Shown piece by piece: positions 1,669 through 19,117 of a DNA stretch of 25,718 bases (the first letter of the stretch is position 1; every line of letters begins with the position of its first letter). The DNA lies in IMG/VR virus record IMGVR_UViG_3300049846_000674, positions 1-25,718 of that record. The stretch is one strand, 5' to 3'. This DNA is from a virus. A program made the position numbers and the translations under genes. Under the pieces are notes generated by a model. The model was given only the letters and a program-made list of their open reading frames with translations, searched no databases and had not been told where the DNA came from.

Positions 1669-2922
1669 TTATTCCTCCGAAAAAATAATTTGGCAAGTCG
1701 CGGTTATAGTTGCCGCCGCCGACGCATCCACCATGATTGCGTACCCTTCAGCGACCCCTGACCTCATGATCAAGGGTTCAACCTCTGTTAACCCATCGTC
1801 TTCATACAAAATGACGGGAATCTCTGTCGGGATTGGGTTAACCGTAGATGCTGCGCCAGTGATTCCGAGTGCGATTTCCATATTTCCCCATCCAGCGTTT
1901 GCCGCCGCTTCTGATCCGGCGGTGGTCGGAAGTGCCAGGCATGTCGCCTCAGCCGCCGAGCTTGAAGTATTGTGGGCAAGCGGAGTTATTGCAGGGTTAC
2001 CAGTGGCTGGTGCTGTCGTAGCTGAAAGCCTACGAAGCTCAACCATGACGGTTACCGCTGCGCTACAGTTTTTAAGCCACACCCGAACGGATCTGATCCG
2101 AACGGTTTTTGTTGCAGAGGCGGCGTGATAAATCGTTGCGTATTGCTTGACCCCAGCTCCCGCAAAAGCGTTTGAAAGCGCGTATGCTCTTGTCGTCAAT
2201 CGATAGTTTGCGACATAAGTCGTCCTAAATCCACCTCTAACAATCTGAGCGCCGTTTAAATCAAACCAACCATCAACACGGTCATTGTTGGCACTTACGG
2301 CGGTTGGGATCGAAGTTCTTGTGGTCGCCTTTCCACCGATTTTTAGAGGGTTGCCGGAATCAACACCGTCGTTTGCAATATCCCCCGCCGAAAGAATGGG
2401 TGACATCGATCCATCTCCGGTAATGTGAAGCCTTCCGCTTAAATCCGCCCACCCCCGAACGACGTTTCCAGAGGTTACGGAAGTTGGTGCTCCGGTTGAC
2501 CCTACAAATCCTTGTAAAATAGGGTTCCCTGTGATTGAGGCGTTATGTGCGTCTATTCCTCCGCAAAATAAATTTGAAATTCCGACAACATGAACGGGCA
2601 CGCCTATCAGAGATGAAATACTTGCAATTGGTAGCGATTCGTAATCTCCGTTTGCAGCCCCAGCGGCCAGGGTGTCTCTTCTTACACCTAGCATTTGAAC
2701 GCCAACGTCACCGCTTGCGTGTATTGCGTCTTCCGCCTTTCCTAGATCAGTTGCGCCAGTTCCAGGTGTTACTTGTGATATAGATACCGTGGAAGATCCA
2801 AATGAAGTGATCTGGTTTCCAGATGCGTCTACAATTTCAACGGAAAGAACGCGCTTTGATCCCCTCTGAGAATCAGATATTGGGATTGTTCCACCTATCG
2901 TTGAAGCAAGCTGTAACCTCAC
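1669..2922 (-). CDS. Beta-rich virion structural protein (late cluster)
   Basis: A 417-residue protein starting with GTG at 2922, behind GAGGAAGTTAA. It contains HASGDVGVQMLGVRRD (about 69-84), NGDYESLPIAS, GRLHITGDGS and NDRVDGWFDLNGAQIVRGG (about 213-231), a set of motifs I know from large phage structural proteins whose exact position in the virion is not established. The C-terminal third is Ala/Thr-rich beta (IRSVRVWLKNCSAAVTVMVEL). There is no signal or membrane segment. Its location after the lysis cassette is unusual for a structural gene, but such displaced tail or fibre genes occur. The base composition seems richer in GC than the neighbouring small genes (by eye). Confidence 0.78.
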   Translation of the reverse strand: MRLQLASTIGGTIPISDSQRGSKRVLSVEIVDASGNQITSFGSSTVSISQVTPGTGATDLGKAEDAIHASGDVGVQMLGVRRDTLAAGAANGDYESLPIASISSLIGVPVHVVGISNLFCGGIDAHNASITGNPILQGFVGSTGAPTSVTSGNVVRGWADLSGRLHITGDGSMSPILSAGDIANDGVDSGNPLKIGGKATTRTSIPTAVSANNDRVDGWFDLNGAQIVRGGFRTTYVANYRLTTRAYALSNAFAGAGVKQYATIYHAASATKTVRIRSVRVWLKNCSAAVTVMVELRRLSATTAPATGNPAITPLAHNTSSSAAEATCLALPTTAGSEAAANAGWGNMEIALGITGAASTVNPIPTEIPVILYEDDGLTEVEPLIMRSGVAEGYAIMVDASAAATITATCQIIFSEE

Positions 2923-3209
2923 TTAACTTCCTCAATGGCATCAATTAGACTGTTTTGGTAGCAGGTATTCAATTTAGCCAAAATTCTAGATAACTTTTCG
3001 TCCCCAATTAAAATAAAGTGAGTAAGGTCCAAGTCTTTGCACTCGCATCCAACGGCTTTAGGGTCAACTATCTTTTCACTTAGCGGGGGGATCGGGCTTG
3101 CGTGGGTGCAAGATAGCGTCAAGTTTGCCAACAAGATTATCAAGATCTCTTTGAAGATCGTCGATTTTCCTGTCCTGAAGCTTGATGAGCTGTCGATTGG
3201 TTTGATCAT
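2919..3209 (-). CDS. Outer-membrane lipoprotein spanin (Rz1-like), overlapping the i-spanin
   Basis: A 96-residue protein. The N-terminal region ends in a hydrophobic stretch and lipobox (ILIILLANLTLSC, lipidated Cys34), followed by a Pro-rich THASPIPPLSEK segment as in Rz1-type proteins. The ATG at 3209 has AGAGGA about 6 bases upstream, inside the inner-spanin gene, so about 134 bases are read in two frames; the gene then continues beyond it. Downstream are CECKDL and a helical C-terminus. A shorter start at an internal TTG would also keep the lipobox. The TGA overlaps the next start by four bases (GTGA). Confidence 0.76.
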   Translation of the reverse strand: MIKPIDSSSSFRTGKSTIFKEILIILLANLTLSCTHASPIPPLSEKIVDPKAVGCECKDLDLTHFILIGDEKLSRILAKLNTCYQNSLIDAIEEVK

Positions 3210-3333
3210 TCACTTCCTCTCGAATTCTTAAAGCCTCTTTAACTCTTGGATTGATCTTAGCGAATGTCTGGCGGTTAAACCACTGAAGGATAACCGCGCA
3301 AACATTCAAAATAACATCTAAGACCTTAAGCAT
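3076..3333 (-). CDS. Inner-membrane spanin (Rz-like)
   Basis: An 85-residue protein: an N-terminal membrane segment (LKVLDVILNVCAVILQWF, 2-19), then a long charged coiled coil (about 30-75, REEVNDQTNRQLIKLQDRK...) and a Pro-rich basic end (HPRKPDPPAK). It is shorter than lambda Rz. It has no separate Shine-Dalgarno and probably relies on coupling to the holin-like gene (TAATG). Most decisive is that a lipoprotein gene begins inside it in another frame, the classic Rz/Rz1 arrangement. Together they would bridge the periplasm and fuse inner and outer membranes in the last step of lysis. Confidence 0.74.
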   Translation of the reverse strand: MLKVLDVILNVCAVILQWFNRQTFAKINPRVKEALRIREEVNDQTNRQLIKLQDRKIDDLQRDLDNLVGKLDAILHPRKPDPPAK

Positions 3334-3530
3334 TAAACAGCAGGAGGCACGTCTTGCTTAGATCGAATCCCTAAAAGACCTAACCCAAGAAAAAACGTAG
3401 CCGCGCCTTCCTGGTATGATCCCTGCAGTTTTCCGGTATAAACTAAAACCATCTGCACTAACCCAATCACCATTAATCCAGCGCCGCCCAACTTTCCTTT
3501 AGATTTTAAAATATCAACTAAGAATTGCAT
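3333..3530 (-). CDS. Holin-like small membrane protein
   Basis: A 65-residue protein with two hydrophobic segments (about 17-33, GLMVIGLVQMVLVYTGK, and about 42-55, AATFFLGLGLLGI) separated by a short Gly/Gln/Ser-rich turn, and charged ends. This is the shape of a class II-like holin, which would make the inner-membrane holes that release the endolysin. It begins after an excellent AGGAGGAATC Shine-Dalgarno inside the end of the endolysin gene, and its TAA overlaps the next ATG by one base. Another membrane protein (at 4046) is an alternative holin candidate, so the assignment is by topology and context. Confidence 0.72.
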   Translation of the reverse strand: MQFLVDILKSKGKLGGAGLMVIGLVQMVLVYTGKLQGSYQEGAATFFLGLGLLGIRSKQDVPPAV

Positions 3531-4039
3531 GATTCCTCCTTTTTTAAATTATACTTAGAAACAACACTACCATAGGCTGTCCTAAATTCTTTAATGTACT
3601 CATATGGCACGTTTTTGTCTTTGTGGTACCCGCTATTATAACAATCCGCGAACTCCTCTACAGTCTTAACCCCACGCGCAACACAACGTCTTTTTATGTA
3701 TTCAACCACCCATAAAACTGCAATGTCGTCATTCCACAAATCCGCAGGGCTGCGCCGCCAAGGTTCGGAATCAAACCCTAATTCGCAAGCGACAGGGTAC
3801 ATGATCTGGAAAGAGCTATATGAGCAGCACGCCCACGCGCCCCATTTTTTATATCTTTGAAGCTGGTCGTAATTAAACAAGTGCCCCTCTTTAGCGTAAG
3901 CTCGTTCAAACCTAGGCACATTAAATTCACCAAAGGATGACTCTACTACTGCAAGCGCACCTAAAAGTGCTAGTGGGTCAGCAAAACTTACAATAGGTGT
4001 AAGCATTTTTGCGCCGGTCTTGATGGATTCAACCAGCAC
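3518..4039 (-). CDS. Endolysin, lytic transglycosylase (SLT/lysozyme-like) type
   Basis: A 173-residue peptidoglycan-cleaving enzyme. The lysozyme-like motifs are in order: catalytic Glu33 in LGALAVVESSFGE, SYSSFQIMYP (73-82, the counterpart of the usual SYGLMQI), and ADCYNSG (131-137, counterpart of AYNAG). It has no signal peptide, so it depends on a holin. The start is GTG at 4039, five bases after AGGTGAG; an ATG at residue 12 would be too close to the fold. It overlaps the holin-like gene by 13 bases. Cys71-Cys72 just before the QIM motif are unusual. Confidence 0.85.
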   Translation of the reverse strand: MLVESIKTGAKMLTPIVSFADPLALLGALAVVESSFGEFNVPRFERAYAKEGHLFNYDQLQRYKKWGAWACCSYSSFQIMYPVACELGFDSEPWRRSPADLWNDDIAVLWVVEYIKRRCVARGVKTVEEFADCYNSGYHKDKNVPYEYIKEFRTAYGSVVSKYNLKKEESCNS

Positions 4040-12555: not shown

Positions 12556-12930
12556 TTAATTGCTTATTTGTTTTGCAAACAACCTGCATGGGCCACAATC
12601 TTCAAAACCAAATGTCTTCGCGTGGTTCTCTATCGCCTCATTATCTGTAATTGCAAAGAGATAGGCAAGCCCCATCTGCTTGGCTATTTCTTGCAACTCA
12701 TGGGCAATTCTTAAAATCGCTACTTTTCTTTCACTCTTTTTTGCAAGAGGATTTGAAACAAAGTTCTCAAGCAATCCAACTCCTGAATCTGTTTTGGTTA
12801 GCCATCCTGCAGCAAGTCCAGGCTCTATAAGCCCCGTTTTGGGGTAAAACTCGGATGACAAGGTTTTAAGGTCGCGGTCCATTCTCCAGGTGTTGATCTC
12901 AAGAAAATCTGATCTTTCAATTAGTCTCAT
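12556..12930 (-). CDS. GNAT-like acetyltransferase-fold protein
   Basis: A 124-residue protein. The C-terminal half, NPLAKKSERKVAILRIAHEL then AKQMGLAYLFAITDNEAI and HAKTFGFE (about 60-110), follows the GNAT pattern of an acetyl-CoA-binding helix, a strand and the usual 'AI..HAK.FGF' helix-strand end. The classic pyrophosphate-loop Q/RxxGxG/A is not clear, so cofactor binding may be altered or lost. It overlaps the nozzle gene by four bases (ATGA) and is followed 9 bases later by a structural gene. Known acetyltransferases modify proteins or small molecules; here the target is unknown. It could equally be a degenerate fold used as a virion or assembly factor. Confidence 0.62.
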   Translation of the reverse strand: MRLIERSDFLEINTWRMDRDLKTLSSEFYPKTGLIEPGLAAGWLTKTDSGVGLLENFVSNPLAKKSERKVAILRIAHELQEIAKQMGLAYLFAITDNEAIENHAKTFGFEDCGPCRLFAKQISN

Positions 12931-15900
12931 GAAAACGACCTTGATGGATTTACTTTAAATGTCCCCGATTTAACGCCAAATAGGAAGTTAATAGCTGAAA
13001 TTGAAAGCCCCTCACCATAGGTTGGGGTCTGAACCTCCTCAATTTCAAATTGAATAGCCTGACATTTCTGTTTCTCCATAAAAACCCTGAATTGCTCAAG
13101 CGGAAACTCGCCACCGTATGGTGTGCCTGATCCATAAGGTGAATCTTCCCCGTATGTTGTGGTTCCTAGCAAACTCCCAGCGTCAATTGTTACTTCCTGA
13201 ACAAAGTTTGGGTTAAAATCATAAGCCACCCTCACGATAAAACTATGGCTGCTCTTATATTCCCCTAAGAAAATAGCTTGATAAATTCTTTGGAATCCTT
13301 GCAATCCCGCAAACGAAATCCACCCTGTTTTTAGTTTTAATGGAATAAAAGCCCCGCAATCCGTGAATAGGTCGCTTTGATCCTGGCAAACAGCCCCAGC
13401 CGTACTGATATAGGTAAACTTATTCTGAAAGATGGTTGAATCAGCTATATTTTGTCCTGTAAATGTAGACCATTGGTTAAATAAATAGTCGTAAACCAGG
13501 GTTGTCCCCACCGAAGTTGTAAACCTAACCTGGTTCGTGTTTGGAATGAGTTGAGCGGAAGTTATTGTTAAGTTATTAAACGCCTCTACGGGAGCGCCAA
13601 TATAATTATCTTGGAGTGATCGATCTAAAAGATAGATCCCTTTAGCAGTCTGTCTCATAAGACCAACTGGCGTTATAACAATTGATCTTTGGTTTGTGCA
13701 TCCTGCGTCCGTTGTAATTAGCTCAGGTGTCGGTATATCATCTTGAGTTCCAGTATTTGTAGGCCCCTGCCCACCCGTTACCCATGACGTATTGGTTTTA
13801 AATAAGATAAGCTTTTCATCCATTTGGGCCAGACCTGTTAATTCCCCGTCCCTCCCGTCAATAGGCTTAACTATAAAATCAGAGAATTCTACCGGCGTCC
13901 CAGGAATTGTCTCTTTAGATAGCCAAAACGAAAGCTTATTTTCGCTAGGAATAAGGGCCAGCCTGTTTTTATATGTAGTAACCACCGAACATGCAGGGGC
14001 GGATACGTTTTCCAAAACCCCACCTGTTGTATATAAAAATTGGTTTCCATTTAAATATTGGTCAGTAGCGGTATCTATAAAAGACACGGTATCAGCAGTT
14101 GGATCATTTATAGTTGGGGATGAAATAGAAGAAACTTTATAAAAAACGGTTCCGTTATTTTGAGTTCTATAAACAGCAATGGAGGCATCTGCCCGACTAA
14201 AAGACTGCCTTTTTGATGTAAGCCTAAGCGTTGGAATTGAAAAAGTTGCCTTGCTTGTGTCACTTGTAGAAATAGCAACCCCCGCCCCTCCAGCCGTTGC
14301 TAGATTTGACATTGTGATAACAGTCGATGAATTGATAACTTGAATGTAGGTGTTAGCTGGTATCCCAGCACCCGTTATTTTTTGGCCTACAATTAACCCA
14401 GAAATCGACGAGACTGACGTTAATTGGTTACTGTTTAATGTAGTTGTGGCGGTAAAGTTTACCGGCGTTCCTGTTTGTTGTATGACTGTTTGTGGAACAG
14501 ATGGCGCAGAACGATGAATATTGCCTTTATTGTCGGTCCATTCATAGACAAAACAGTACTGGTATGTGCCCGCTGGAATTCCTCCACCTGTTACCGCTAA
14601 TGTTGGAGCGGCTGCTTGCTCAGGGAAAACATGAAACCCATGCTCTACAACAGAAACCCCGTCATACATCGATAAATAACCTCCGGAAATGTGAAGATTA
14701 AGCGACATGTCGGCTCTTATAAATACGTTTGACCCAGTAAAATTAAATTCCGCATCGACCACACCTGAGTTAGTTAAAACAACACCTGATTGAACATCTA
14801 AAGAGTCTTTTTGAAGTAATCCTACTAAGTATTGTCCGGTAGCAATCTGCCATACGCCAGGAAGAATCACTTTCTTTGTAAGACCTCCCCCTACCTGAGA
14901 TGCGATTCTTGCTACAATTGTTCCAGAGGTGTTTGCTAAGAAATAACTTGGCTGCAATGAAGATTCATAGGCCAAACCGACGTAGGTGTCGGTATTGTAG
15001 GTAAACATTTTAAAAGCAAGGCCCACGGATCTCATAAATACTGAAATGGTGCCTGGAGTGACCGCACTTGTCGCTCTAACCAAGCTCACCTTTCTAATGT
15101 TGTGATCATATGTATTTGTAGCCGATATTTGATAAAGAAGCGTTGATGTTCCGTTATTTGAATCAGGTTCTGAAACTATAATTCCAGTTAAATTTACTAC
15201 GTTGGCAATAATTTCAATAGAGTATGGAGCTACTACAGTTGATGAAAGGTCGTAGTTTAAAACAAAACCCTTAACCGTAGTTCCGTTATAATAAGCAACC
15301 CAGATATTTTGGTTCGCATCCCCCCAGACCGTGACCCCACCAGTAGCCACCTCTGTTGCCTTATCTAGCGCAGAGCTTATGGTTAAGAAAGAATTGATAT
15401 ATTGAGTTGTTACGGCAGTAACTGTTGAGTTGTAGCTTAAAAACAACCTAGCACCAACTACTTGTCCGTCCCATTTAGGATTAGCAGCTACCACGTTTGA
15501 GTTAATTTGAACAGCCGAACCTATTGTGGTTGGGGTAGAAATCTGTACGGCTCTGTAAAATAGACCAGGGGCTTTATAGTAAATAAAAATAATGTAGTTT
15601 CCTAACGCGAAAACCCTTGGTGTTGCCCCAGATGCGTCCAGAACGGAGTCTGCAATTAATGGTTGGTTGGTATTAGCATCTAAGATTGTGTACCTAGTCC
15701 CGCCCCTAGAGTCTTCCCAACAAAAAGCCTTAAATCCAGCCGTGTGGTAGCACCCATCCTGTGACGTTTGGGCATATGGGTTAGAAATTACCGCCCTATT
15801 TGTAACCTCCATCGAAACAAGAGAACCTTTTGAGTTTACTGCAGCCTGGGAAGCTGAATAAGAATTTACGTTTCTACCATCAAAAGCTAGGAGTTCATTT

Positions 15901-16094
15901 AGGTATGCCGATATACCTGCTCCTGCTGACGCCGTAGCTAGAAGAGAAGACCCATTTCTTTTATTGATCCTATTAACATTGATGAAAGTCCCGTTTTGAA
16001 GAGTAAGAAGTTTACCAAGTGGAACTTGTTTAGAATCTGTTTTTGTGTCTAGCCCGTTACCAAATGGAAGTGAAAGGCTTTGTTTTTGAAGCAT
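12927..16094 (-). CDS. Tail nozzle / stabilisation protein (large beta-rich tail protein)
   Basis: A 1055-residue protein starting LSLPFGNGLDTKTDSKQVP (about residues 7-25) and then KRNGSS, an N-terminal pattern I associate with nozzle proteins of short-tailed phages (roles like T7 gp12 or P22 gp10). The body alternates strands and Gly/Thr/Asn loops, with repeated Trp- and Tyr-containing blades compatible with a beta-propeller. It is longer than the T7 and P22 counterparts, partly because of an inserted Thr/Ser-rich module at about 541-616 (SGLIVGQKITGAGIPANTY). The C-terminal third contains PYGSGTPYGGEFPLEQFRVF, also typical. It would form the tail tip and plug that holds in DNA. Confidence 0.83.
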   Translation of the reverse strand: MLQKQSLSLPFGNGLDTKTDSKQVPLGKLLTLQNGTFINVNRINKRNGSSLLATASAGAGISAYLNELLAFDGRNVNSYSASQAAVNSKGSLVSMEVTNRAVISNPYAQTSQDGCYHTAGFKAFCWEDSRGGTRYTILDANTNQPLIADSVLDASGATPRVFALGNYIIFIYYKAPGLFYRAVQISTPTTIGSAVQINSNVVAANPKWDGQVVGARLFLSYNSTVTAVTTQYINSFLTISSALDKATEVATGGVTVWGDANQNIWVAYYNGTTVKGFVLNYDLSSTVVAPYSIEIIANVVNLTGIIVSEPDSNNGTSTLLYQISATNTYDHNIRKVSLVRATSAVTPGTISVFMRSVGLAFKMFTYNTDTYVGLAYESSLQPSYFLANTSGTIVARIASQVGGGLTKKVILPGVWQIATGQYLVGLLQKDSLDVQSGVVLTNSGVVDAEFNFTGSNVFIRADMSLNLHISGGYLSMYDGVSVVEHGFHVFPEQAAAPTLAVTGGGIPAGTYQYCFVYEWTDNKGNIHRSAPSVPQTVIQQTGTPVNFTATTTLNSNQLTSVSSISGLIVGQKITGAGIPANTYIQVINSSTVITMSNLATAGGAGVAISTSDTSKATFSIPTLRLTSKRQSFSRADASIAVYRTQNNGTVFYKVSSISSPTINDPTADTVSFIDTATDQYLNGNQFLYTTGGVLENVSAPACSVVTTYKNRLALIPSENKLSFWLSKETIPGTPVEFSDFIVKPIDGRDGELTGLAQMDEKLILFKTNTSWVTGGQGPTNTGTQDDIPTPELITTDAGCTNQRSIVITPVGLMRQTAKGIYLLDRSLQDNYIGAPVEAFNNLTITSAQLIPNTNQVRFTTSVGTTLVYDYLFNQWSTFTGQNIADSTIFQNKFTYISTAGAVCQDQSDLFTDCGAFIPLKLKTGWISFAGLQGFQRIYQAIFLGEYKSSHSFIVRVAYDFNPNFVQEVTIDAGSLLGTTTYGEDSPYGSGTPYGGEFPLEQFRVFMEKQKCQAIQFEIEEVQTPTYGEGLSISAINFLFGVKSGTFKVNPSRSFS

Positions 16095-16483
16095 TAAAAC
16101 ACCACGGCTGTTTTACAAAATTGAGATTCTAGGCTTACAAAATCTTTTGAAGTATGGGCAGAGTCTGGATCTCTATACAAAAAATTTCTTGAAGCATGAA
16201 CAAATTCGTGAACAAGTGGTATGCAAAAATTATCAGATAATTTTACATATATCTCATTTTGTTTCCAGCATCCTTGAATTCTTTCACTTAACGTCCCACA
16301 CACTTTTTTTAACTTATCTAACTCAATGATGTATACGTTTGTTTTTTTAAAAACTTCTGAAAGATCGCTTAAATAGTATTTACTAAAATAATTTTTCATG
16401 TCCTCTGTTTGGTTATATGCTTTATAATCAATCGTTTGTTCACCACATCCGATAAAAAATAAAATTAAAAATACCGTTCTCAT
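16094..16483 (-). CDS. Predicted lipoprotein with an HExxH zinc-metalloprotease motif
   Basis: A 129-residue protein beginning MRTVFLILFFIGCGEQ: a short basic n-region, a hydrophobic core and a lipobox-like FIGC, so Cys13 may be lipidated after signal peptidase II cleavage (the Phe at -3 is not ideal). Residues 92-96 are HEFVH, the zinc-binding and catalytic motif of zincin proteases; H110, D105/D107 or E119 could supply the third ligand. Further Cys at 62, 72, 87 and 123 could form disulfides outside the cytoplasm. It overlaps both structural neighbours by 4 and 1 bases. It may process a tail or host surface protein; the substrate is unknown. HExxH alone can occur by chance, but its predicted secondary structure context (helix after C87) fits. 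Confidence 0.75.
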   Translation of the reverse strand: MRTVFLILFFIGCGEQTIDYKAYNQTEDMKNYFSKYYLSDLSEVFKKTNVYIIELDKLKKVCGTLSERIQGCWKQNEIYVKLSDNFCIPLVHEFVHASRNFLYRDPDSAHTSKDFVSLESQFCKTAVVF

Positions 16484-17739
16484 GTATCAAATATAACTTC
16501 AAACCATGCATGAGAATACAGTGTCCCAGCTATACTAGATCCGTTATTGTCCTCTACCATTGATAAATAATCGCCGGCTATAAATGTATTTGCATTTCTA
16601 GAAAAAGTTGCCCTATCATCTTTTAGACCTGTAGCTGAAAAGCTAATGTTTGAACCAGTTATAAAATCAACTCCATTTTTTTGTATCTTCATCCTGCAAG
16701 TACCAACAGAAGAAAAAGCTGTCATTCTAAATGTAACACCATAACCAACTATAGACCCTGGCCTTGTCATCACATAAGGATATGTGGTCGTACCCACACC
16801 TAAAGTTCCGTTTAAGGTGTATTGTACTGGACTGATTGATGGGTTAAAATTTAATGCGGACCCAGAAAATGTGTTTCTGACTCCTCTAGCCTCTCCAGTT
16901 ATTGTTATGATGTCTGCTGCAGCATCACCTAATGTAACTGCCCCATTAAATATCGATGCGCCAGATACGGTAATTGATTGAACCGTTCCGTTAATTGTTA
17001 TCACATCACCGGAAGAATCACCGAGCGTGACGGCACCATTAGCTACAAGCGCACCTGTAAGGGTTAATGACCCACCAAACGTCGCATTTCCTGTTACGTC
17101 AATAGCCGAAACGGTAGATGAAAACGCAATTACCCCAGAGGCATTGCACGTTAATGGAAGTACGCTACCTGGCAGAGCACCTGGAAGAGTCAAAGAATAC
17201 GATGCCGCTAAAGACCCTGGAACCAAAACCGTGATGGCGTTTGTTGGAGTTGTTATATTTCTAAGTATTAAATCGCCAGTATCAATTTTTGCTGGAGTGT
17301 TAGATGATTGCCAAAACGTAAAAATCTTTGAGGCTGACGTATAGAACAGCGATGCTGTAGAAGTAGAGTAATCGCCTCCAATAGCTCCTAAACTTGCCCC
17401 GTTTAGAGCTGCTCCAGCCGTAATCTGAACTTGCGAACCGCCCGAATTATTATAGTAAAGATTCCCGCCTGATTCATAAATGCATCCAAGGTCAGTTCCT
17501 AACGCTAATGGAGAGCCTTGATTTACTAAGCGCAAAGACCTGATATTCGTCATGTTAAATGAGTTTAGGGCTAAGTCTGCGTTGATGTTGATGCCCGCCG
17601 TTGGCACCTTAATTCCTTTTCCAGAAGTGTGATCATGCGAATCAACCGACGTAATTGCATCGTTTAACGTAGATGCCCACCCAGGTCCGGTGGATATTGA
17701 AGCGGTTGGAAGCGTTAAATTCATGTACGGAGTAGCCAT
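16480..17739 (-). CDS. Tail fibre-like protein
   Basis: A 419-residue beta-rich protein. The N-terminus (LTLPTASISTGPGWASTLNDA then VDSHDHTSGKG, to about residue 43) is a well-known anchor type in phage tail fibres. The shaft contains Gly/Thr/Ala-rich strands with near-repeats: NGAVTLGDSSGDVITINGT and, about 35 residues later, NGAVTLGDAAADIITITGE. The C-terminal 100 residues form another beta domain (with KIQKNGVDF and AGDYLSMVEDNN) ending in AWFEVIFDT, a likely receptor- or trimer-tip domain. It should sit on the short tail and contact the host surface. The DNA repeats have diverged, so the protein repeats look old. Confidence 0.83.
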   Translation of the reverse strand: MATPYMNLTLPTASISTGPGWASTLNDAITSVDSHDHTSGKGIKVPTAGININADLALNSFNMTNIRSLRLVNQGSPLALGTDLGCIYESGGNLYYNNSGGSQVQITAGAALNGASLGAIGGDYSTSTASLFYTSASKIFTFWQSSNTPAKIDTGDLILRNITTPTNAITVLVPGSLAASYSLTLPGALPGSVLPLTCNASGVIAFSSTVSAIDVTGNATFGGSLTLTGALVANGAVTLGDSSGDVITINGTVQSITVSGASIFNGAVTLGDAAADIITITGEARGVRNTFSGSALNFNPSISPVQYTLNGTLGVGTTTYPYVMTRPGSIVGYGVTFRMTAFSSVGTCRMKIQKNGVDFITGSNISFSATGLKDDRATFSRNANTFIAGDYLSMVEDNNGSSIAGTLYSHAWFEVIFDT

Positions 17740-18050
17740 CAGAACACCACCAAGCTTGCCGTGGCAGGGCCACTGGCTGTTAAAATTAAAGTCTTGTCTT
17801 GGATTAAGTTCGTAGCCTGAGAATCAAACAGAGTAATCGCGGCGCTAATCCTAACGACAAACCACCCTGATAATTTTCTGCCCAACTTATGCGATATTGT
17901 ATTTACCCCAGAAACCAAAGAAATACCCTCCAATAAGACCGCATCCACTAAAAGAGAAGAAAGCGCCTGGTTTACTCCTTCAAGTAACCTATCCTGCATT
18001 TTGCTTACTTCAAAATCCTTTGGGTTGCTTGATAACACTGTCTTTCTCAT
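17739..18050 (-). CDS. Small beta-sandwich virion protein, fibre-associated
   Basis: A 103-residue protein. After a helical N-terminus (residues about 14-35) comes an alternating pattern: ISLVSGVNTISHKLGRKLSGWFVVRISAA... ending in small hydrophobic strands. The 'GVNTISHKLGR' plus 'GWFVVR' pattern is one I know from small phage proteins and from domains fused to tail fibres or spikes, so it is probably a tail accessory or fibre-attachment protein. It overlaps the adaptor by four bases (ATGA) and the next fibre gene by one (TGATG). No enzymatic residues are visible. Confidence 0.72.
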   Translation of the reverse strand: MRKTVLSSNPKDFEVSKMQDRLLEGVNQALSSLLVDAVLLEGISLVSGVNTISHKLGRKLSGWFVVRISAAITLFDSQATNLIQDKTLILTASGPATASLVVF

Positions 18051-19117
18051 GGCAGGTATCCACCTCCGTTAAAACCATTGTAAGGGTCGAAATCGGTCAT
18101 TACATCTGTAACGGTTTGAGGTTCTCCTACATCTCTATTTTCTGCAGCCTCTTCAATTCTCTGTTTTAAACCCATTTTCTGTGCCATGAAAAGCTGCGGA
18201 TCAGTTTCTTCAGCTCCACAATATTTTATGCAAACATCAGAAACAATATATTGCTCCCACCCAGATACACCGTCTAATTCTTGAGGCCCGAAGTCCGTAA
18301 CCAAATCGTATTGAAGGTGAAAATTCTGAATATCAACAAAAGACGGCCCTTGAATCCATATTTCTAATGTGTCCCCTGCAACAAACGATGTTGAAATCTG
18401 CTCCGAGGTTTCTACAAAAGAAGCTGAAGAAGTATTTTGAGTCAATCCGATTGGAAACCCATTTTTATAAATTCTTGAGGTCGATGCTCCTGCACTAGCA
18501 GCACGCCATTGCCAAACCACCTGAAAAGTCCCACTTATAGCAGAAGGAATGGTCATCGAAGTACCCAAAGCAGGGGTAGCTGGAGAAAACGGAGAAACTA
18601 GCGTGTTATTAGATAACTGAATCGTTGAAGAAGCCTGCGCCGTACTTACTCCAGCGTCATTAGGTCTAGGGGCATATAAAAGACGTATCGTTTGCCCAGC
18701 AGAGGGTAGGGGGGAAAACCATATTTTATCCCCTCGTAGTCGATACCTCATGTTTCCAGAACCATAAACGCCCTGAAAATCTGGCTGTTTGAAATTATTC
18801 CTTTCGCCCTTCATGAACTGTTTAATAGAAACCCATCCATCTGGGGAACCATTAACTGAAAGATCTACCCCATATAATTTGTAAAAATCTACAGGAAGGG
18901 CAAAGGTGTCATTGGTCCCATCCGTTTGAAACGTATATGGATCGGCAAAATAATAATCGGAACCAAATTTCTGGACTAAAAGATCGTAGAGTTCTTTATA
19001 TGAATCAAGAATCCATTTATACCTTCTGGATTGAGGTACAAATTCAGAGCCGGTTCGATCCATCCTAGCCAGAACCTCTGCATCAATTTCGCTAATCGTG
19101 GTCCGGCCATTGGCCAT
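18047..19117 (-). CDS. Head-to-tail adaptor with an inserted beta-rich domain
   Basis: A 356-residue protein expected to bind the portal and connect it to the tail nozzle. The N-terminal part (ILDSYKELYDLLVQKFG, then FALPVDFYKLYGVDLSVNG) and the C-terminal part (LDGVSGWEQYIVSDVCIKYC, then MAQKMGLKQRIEEAAENRD) match the usual adaptor pattern. In ordinary adaptors these two halves are joined by a short linker after a YxPRP motif. Here about 110 residues (about 157-268) intervene: a Ser/Thr-rich beta segment containing a RIYKNGFPIG loop and AGDTLEIWIQG strand, resembling fibre domains. Start overlaps the preceding TAA by one base; the end overlaps the next gene by four (ATGA). Confidence 0.85.
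   Translation of the reverse strand: MANGRTTISEIDAEVLARMDRTGSEFVPQSRRYKWILDSYKELYDLLVQKFGSDYYFADPYTFQTDGTNDTFALPVDFYKLYGVDLSVNGSPDGWVSIKQFMKGERNNFKQPDFQGVYGSGNMRYRLRGDKIWFSPLPSAGQTIRLLYAPRPNDAGVSTAQASSTIQLSNNTLVSPFSPATPALGTSMTIPSAISGTFQVVWQWRAASAGASTSRIYKNGFPIGLTQNTSSASFVETSEQISTSFVAGDTLEIWIQGPSFVDIQNFHLQYDLVTDFGPQELDGVSGWEQYIVSDVCIKYCGAEETDPQLFMAQKMGLKQRIEEAAENRDVGEPQTVTDVMTDFDPYNGFNGGGYLP

Follow-up and report, generated by a model that had tools for sequence, protein, structure and literature searches.

A putative lipid-anchored mini-zincin encoded by an accessory gene beside a putative tail fibre gene in an uncultured phage

Receptor blocking through binding is an established activity of small phage lipoproteins. 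Spartan and Wss1 are cytosolic or nuclear proteases which act on DNA–protein crosslinks. In phage T5, the llp gene adjoins the receptor-binding protein gene on its downstream side, and the lipoprotein that llp encodes, periplasmic and of the outer membrane, contains a disulphide and inactivates FhuA (PMC9586334). The benefit ascribed to superinfection-exclusion proteins is that progeny do not end up on debris or on cells already infected (PMC9586334). The effector domain of VgrG2b, a Tpe-type periplasmic metallopeptidase, is a zincin with an HExxH motif that works in the bacterial periplasm, and it illustrates that a zincin in this compartment can prove toxic and may detach lipoproteins from membranes (PMC6899460). 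Jumbo phages encode SprT-like zincins, which have been suggested to cleave host proteins (PMC7824862).

The locus described here lies in a window of 25,718 nucleotides, the whole stretch of viral DNA analysed (IMG/VR record IMGVR_UViG_3300049846_000674). We place at roughly 55% the probability that one of its genes is accessory and encodes a lipid-anchored zincin acting on the envelope. The protein would resemble Llp and Cor in being a small periplasmic phage lipoprotein with a disulphide, here a candidate one; its gene lies beside a putative fibre gene, and llp beside that for the receptor-binding protein. Llp is however smaller, and binds and jams FhuA with no proteolysis described, whilst the window protein has about 116 mature residues and a zincin motif. 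VgrG2b, by contrast, is delivered by type VI secretion, is larger and not lipidated, and has no sequence match to the window protein. In Listeria, Mtz and the TIMP-like Tim likewise form a phage-derived envelope metalloprotease system (PMC8235301), although Mtz is of the metzincin class, is secreted and cleaves its partner lipoprotein, and the two genes are under a CI/Cro-type switch. No lipoprotein is mentioned for the SprT-like metallopeptidases of jumbo phages (PMC7824862), unlike the window protein. The features of the locus are as follows.

16480 to 17739, minus strand: upstream putative tail fibre gene, 419 amino acids, homologous to the fibre of relative L019 and eleven others
16480 to 16483, minus strand: ATGA overlap of the fibre stop and the ORF start, with presumed translational coupling
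16094 to 16483, minus strand: ORF of the lipoprotein-type mini-zincin, 129 amino acids
16448 to 16483, minus strand: very short signal, residues 1–12, MRTVFLILFFIG (from sequence)
16445 to 16447, minus strand: predicted lipidated Cys13 (from sequence and general knowledge)
16268 to 16300, minus strand: Cys62...Cys72, candidate disulphide hairpin ahead of the edge strand
16241 to 16255, minus strand: predicted edge beta-strand EIYVK, residues 77–81 (AlphaFold2/DSSP; I.V pattern in family alignments)
16196 to 16210, minus strand: HEFVH, residues 92–96, with putative zinc ligands H92 and H96 and catalytic E93, within predicted helix 87–103
16154 to 16171, minus strand: DPDSAH, with H110 as candidate third zinc ligand (family motif; Spartan alignment)
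16094 to 16096, minus strand: TAATG overlap of the ORF stop and the start of the downstream structural gene
12927 to 16094, minus strand: downstream gene for a conserved virion protein of 1,055 amino acids, 28 distinct relatives

An earlier note on this DNA had described an ORF at 16094–16483 with a lipoprotein-type signal ending in FIGC and an HEFVH motif, all of which are borne out by the sequence. The ORF starts at ATG 16483 and, since an in-frame stop lies two codons upstream, a longer in-frame start is impossible. Judged by eye against the lipoprotein signal rule as known, MRTVFLILFFIGC has the basic n-region, the hydrophobic stretch and the lipobox [GAS]-Cys, terminating in the lipobox-like FIGC at residues 10–13. 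In bacterial lipoprotein signals the cysteine is usually found at about residue 15–35; the window protein, with its cysteine at residue 13, falls short of this range, as do its relatives L052 (1382–1831), L053 and L107, whose signals are comparably short (Cys 12–13). The GC content of the ORF, 29.2%, is the lowest among the predicted genes of the window, the other listed genes ranging from 39 to 50%, and values this low occur in only 0.2% of sliding windows. Cysteine is enriched in the encoded protein (5 of 129 residues, P=0.002). The ORF does overlap the genes on both sides, by ATGA upstream and TAATG downstream. The earlier claim that the protein is made with the tail proteins agrees with these overlapping frames and is kept as an expectation drawn from them; no promoter of its own stands out for the ORF.

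The HExxH motif is unsurprising at the DNA level, where one degenerate occurrence was found against 1.19 expected. At the protein level it arises in 0.3% of shuffles of the window protein, with 0.037 expected across the predicted proteome of the window, none of whose other proteins contains it. The real support for the motif is its relatives and the fold, not these odds. A zincin needs a third ligand, as the earlier note had pointed out, and a plausible candidate is present: the spacing HEFVH-x8-DPDSAH leads us to propose H110, which is likely, on sequence grounds, to be the third zinc ligand. This histidine is kept in all 21 rows of the family alignment, most members having been retrieved by a pattern which includes it, and the Spartan active site aligns at DPDSAH with its third histidine displaced by one residue.

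Searches of Pfam, PHROGs, NCBIfam, PADLOC, PDB sequences and the phage collection turned up no convincing match to the window protein, and a single-protein scan of IMG/VR revealed no close homologues. A match to a DNA gyrase region in the phage collection (E=2) was dismissed, as were weak matches to RIH_assoc, hexosaminidase, MBA and CARF (Pfam, PDB, NCBIfam, PADLOC), which were attributed to chance. Relatives were found instead by scanning IMG/VR with DNA patterns for HExxH-x8-DxDxxH and variants, and translating the matches. About 20 very divergent relatives emerged, all small and with the features of a lipoprotein or a membrane segment; they have HExxH-x8-DxDxxH, usually with Trp or Phe soon after it, and often an upstream cysteine pair (L037, L039, L045, L047, L052 with two in tandem, L053, L056, L058, L067, L075, L098/L100, L099, L101/L111, L103, L105, L107, L108, L109 and L110). 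A scan for HExxH...DPDxxH returned 19 contigs; in 16 of these the motif lies in a small protein with a lipoprotein-type or membrane anchor, whilst a block-reversed control pattern returned four contigs and no protein of this type. Many DNA-pattern matches (for example L034, L041, L046 and L068) were dropped as His/Arg-rich frames resembling the antisense of conserved genes.

The motif is conserved by construction in members found by pattern, yet features that were not searched for also recur. The anchor is one: a lipobox-type cysteine is present in 16 of the 21 alignment rows, the window protein included, with a membrane segment in most of the others. The cysteine pair, found in 13 of 21 members with the second cysteine 20–30 residues before HExxH, has a spacing which is absent from the search patterns, and a Trp column, nearly invariant and lying upstream of the edge strand, was likewise unsearched. 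L052 carries two tandem, overlapping and divergent lipoprotein mini-zincin genes (L052:1382-2280), the second of which has an HELGH that falls outside the first search pattern. Leave-one-out profile scores were compared with those of 200 motif-keeping shuffles for each member. When left out, 16 of the 20 other members outscore all 200 of their own shuffles; the window protein scores 29.7 bits against 22.5 ± 2.6 for its shuffles, four of 200 of which reach its score. Because this score is modest, the window protein is regarded, on sequence comparison, as probably belonging to the family, but as divergent within it. HExxH, whose loss in homologues the earlier note had named as telling against a zincin, is present in the relatives detected, most of them having been found by that motif.

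The members tested are unrecognised by Pfam, PHROGs, NCBIfam and PADLOC, and for those tried, tblastn against 50,697 phage records gave nothing credible. A motif scan of bacterial genomes yielded seven matches, none of them a small lipoprotein; one, L092, resembles a cytosolic SprT-like protein and was set aside. The family profile, run without a positive control, had no match in 297 genomes of one bacterial phylum. Relatives are found at many genome positions (by terminase, sheath, connector and DNA metabolism genes) and in phages of other tail types. Fibre adjacency was considered as a rule for the family and rejected; on inspection of neighbours it is apparent for the window, L107, L110 and L053, whilst other members lie elsewhere.

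The AlphaFold2 model of the window protein, built with the 21-row alignment, has a mean pLDDT of 75, with the best region at residues 41–100. Averages over ten-residue blocks are 74–91 across residues 31–100 and peak, at 88–91, over residues 41–60 and 71–90. The elements run in the order strand, helix, two strands, HExxH helix (87–103) and backing helix, an order which, in the model, fits a mini-zincin layout. The top VIA-align rows belong to zincins or to YbeY, whose fold is related; they comprise YbeY, Spartan, Wss1, VgrG2b, collagenase and selecase, with Z from 4.7 to 6.3 (YbeY 5.5–6.3, Spartan 5.5–5.6, Wss1 5.3), all below 8 and so in a range where chance arrangements are common. For VgrG2b, Z is 5.2 with an rmsd of 11.2, a poor superposition. 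Foldseek matches are weak (best E 0.06 in the PDB and 0.012 in a viral library). The model of L105 reaches a pLDDT of 84 and its structural matches are also weak, with metalloproteases on top at E >1. The predicted fold is zincin-like, albeit with weak scores, and the absence of such a fold, which the earlier note would have held against its proposal, was not what the prediction gave. The reading as a lipoprotein-type mini-zincin is supported, and both the anchoring and the zincin identity of the window protein are fairly well supported.

SprT-like proteins provide a working likeness for the family. As in SprT-like/Spartan/Wss1 proteins (PF10263), HExxH is followed by a third histidine after an acidic D.D stretch and then by an aromatic residue, with a similar core, and the best PDB sequence match of the family profile (hmmsearch) is the Spartan SprT domain at E=0.0077, over 38 positions only. 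In contrast to SprT, Spartan and Wss1, the window protein is predicted to be exported and lipid-anchored. Pfam recognition is sub-threshold and confined to some relatives, which reach at most 16.2 bits against a PF10263 gathering score of 25.6, the window protein having no match to this model.

The neighbouring genes bear on the nature of the insert. The earlier label of tail fibre for the upstream gene is upheld through relative L019, whose homologous fibre matches PHROG tail fibre families. The label of nozzle for the downstream gene is left unconfirmed, since homologues of the 1,055-residue protein match only PHROGs annotated 'virion structural / internal virion protein'. Relatives of the site were gathered through this downstream gene, giving 28 distinct contigs, and in the closest of them (L006, L007, L008, L017, L019, L027 and L028) the fibre and downstream genes directly abut. 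The family profile, which matches the window and four positive controls, has no match anywhere in the 28 relatives. Because these relatives lack a family member and the closest of them have abutting fibre and downstream genes, the gene is taken to be dispensable for this tail type; judged from sequence, its low GC content included, it is an accessory (moron-type) insert at a recurrent insertion site. This is consistent with the earlier remark that no standard podovirus module of the kind is known, the family occurring also in phages with other kinds of tail and elsewhere in the genome.

Other ORFs occupy or flank this region. About ten high-GC relatives have antisense small lipoprotein ORFs at the junction, varied, unrelated and without HExxH (L002, L003, L004, L010, L012, L013, L025, L026, L029, L031 and L032), and L009:5753-5995 and L015:5759-5995 are related same-strand junction ORFs of 78–80 amino acids which are not lipoproteins. 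The junction may possibly be an insertion site for envelope-acting accessory genes. In the window, a 124-residue ORF directly downstream of the 1,055-residue protein gene (12556–12930, minus strand) matches phrog_17252, of unknown function, at E=3.5e-9. The product of 18047–19117 (minus strand) is SU10-adaptor-like, and its residues 164–257 match the C-terminal domain of BclA below threshold, which suggests an inserted domain in a head–tail adaptor.

Two alternatives are addressed by the evidence of the junction. The ORF lies between two structural genes and overlaps both, as might be expected of a virion maturation protease whose substrate is the fibre or the structural protein encoded next to it; maturation of a virion protein was an option which the earlier note had raised. 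The export and lipidation signal would however take the protease out of the cytoplasm, where virions are assembled, the 28 relatives that share the downstream gene do without it, and relatives of the protease adjoin unrelated genes; we therefore disfavour this role, which is very improbable. The protein might otherwise have no enzymatic activity and be a simple binder of the Llp/Cor type, its HExxH being incidental or serving structure alone. This reading gains some weight from the unrelated antisense lipoproteins at the junction, which have no HExxH, and from the low but real chance of HExxH alone. It is unlikely, nevertheless, given that HExxH, DxDxxH and a small anchored protein co-occur across very divergent sequences, that the unsearched tandem copy in L052 also has the motif, and that the modelled fold is zincin-like.

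The ORF, motif, lipoprotein-type signal, family, predicted zincin-like fold and accessory nature are supported by computation; the substrate and role of the protease are those that we infer. The window virus probably infects Gram-negative bacteria, with the protease probably acting on the cell envelope. The gene would be translated with the late tail operon through the start–stop overlap, the short lipoprotein signal would direct export, and Cys13 would be lipidated. Gly, not Asp, follows Cys13, which under the E. coli +2 rule suggests outer-membrane sorting. The domain would sit in the periplasm, held by disulphides C62–C72 and perhaps C87–C123. As a SprT/Wss1-like mini-zincin it would bind Zn through H92, H96 and H110, with E93 activating water, and would, late in infection, cleave a protein of the host envelope.

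The most likely benefit would be receptor or envelope inactivation, by which progeny would avoid binding debris or re-infecting, with aid to envelope breakdown as the next choice. Receptor inactivation would be an enzymatic counterpart of T5 Llp. The window gene lies directly downstream of the putative tail fibre gene, the fibre being a receptor-binding protein only putatively, and a specific receptor-inactivation role is proposed tentatively.

An accessory to envelope disruption or lysis is rather less likely. Here the anchored protease would cut periplasmic or outer-membrane proteins late in infection, such as those by which the outer membrane is tied to the wall, and so aid virion release. 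The late-operon position and the predicted lipid anchor suit such a role, and there are precedents in the metzincin of phage origin which, with a TIMP-like lipoprotein, sensitises Listeria to lysis (PMC8235301) and in VgrG2b as a toxic periplasmic zincin (PMC6899460). This reading is weakened by an apparent lysis cassette elsewhere in the window (2919–4039), where an Rz1-like ORF for a lipoprotein is nested with what may be Rz; the absence of the gene from relatives also counts against it. Within this cassette, two overlapping small ORFs at 2919–3333 (minus strand) resemble an Rz/Rz1 spanin pair, with a lipobox-like LTLSC in 2919–3209, beside a putative holin (3333–3530) and a lysozyme-like ORF (3518–4039). 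The lysis-like ORFs were assigned by inspection, having no convincing family matches.

Returning to the lipid-anchored, envelope-acting zincin, a limited literature search and the family libraries yielded no description of a lipoprotein mini-zincin family. Zincins and phage lipoproteins are known kinds; it is their combination which appears to be new. More speculatively, uncultured phages may share unrecognised lipid-anchored periplasmic mini-zincins whose proteolysis inactivates host receptors or envelope proteins, making superinfection exclusion enzymatic rather than stoichiometric. A phage protease on an anchor of the receptor-blocker type would add catalysis to a strategy of binding, and the family may represent an overlooked means by which phages alter the surface of the infected cell.
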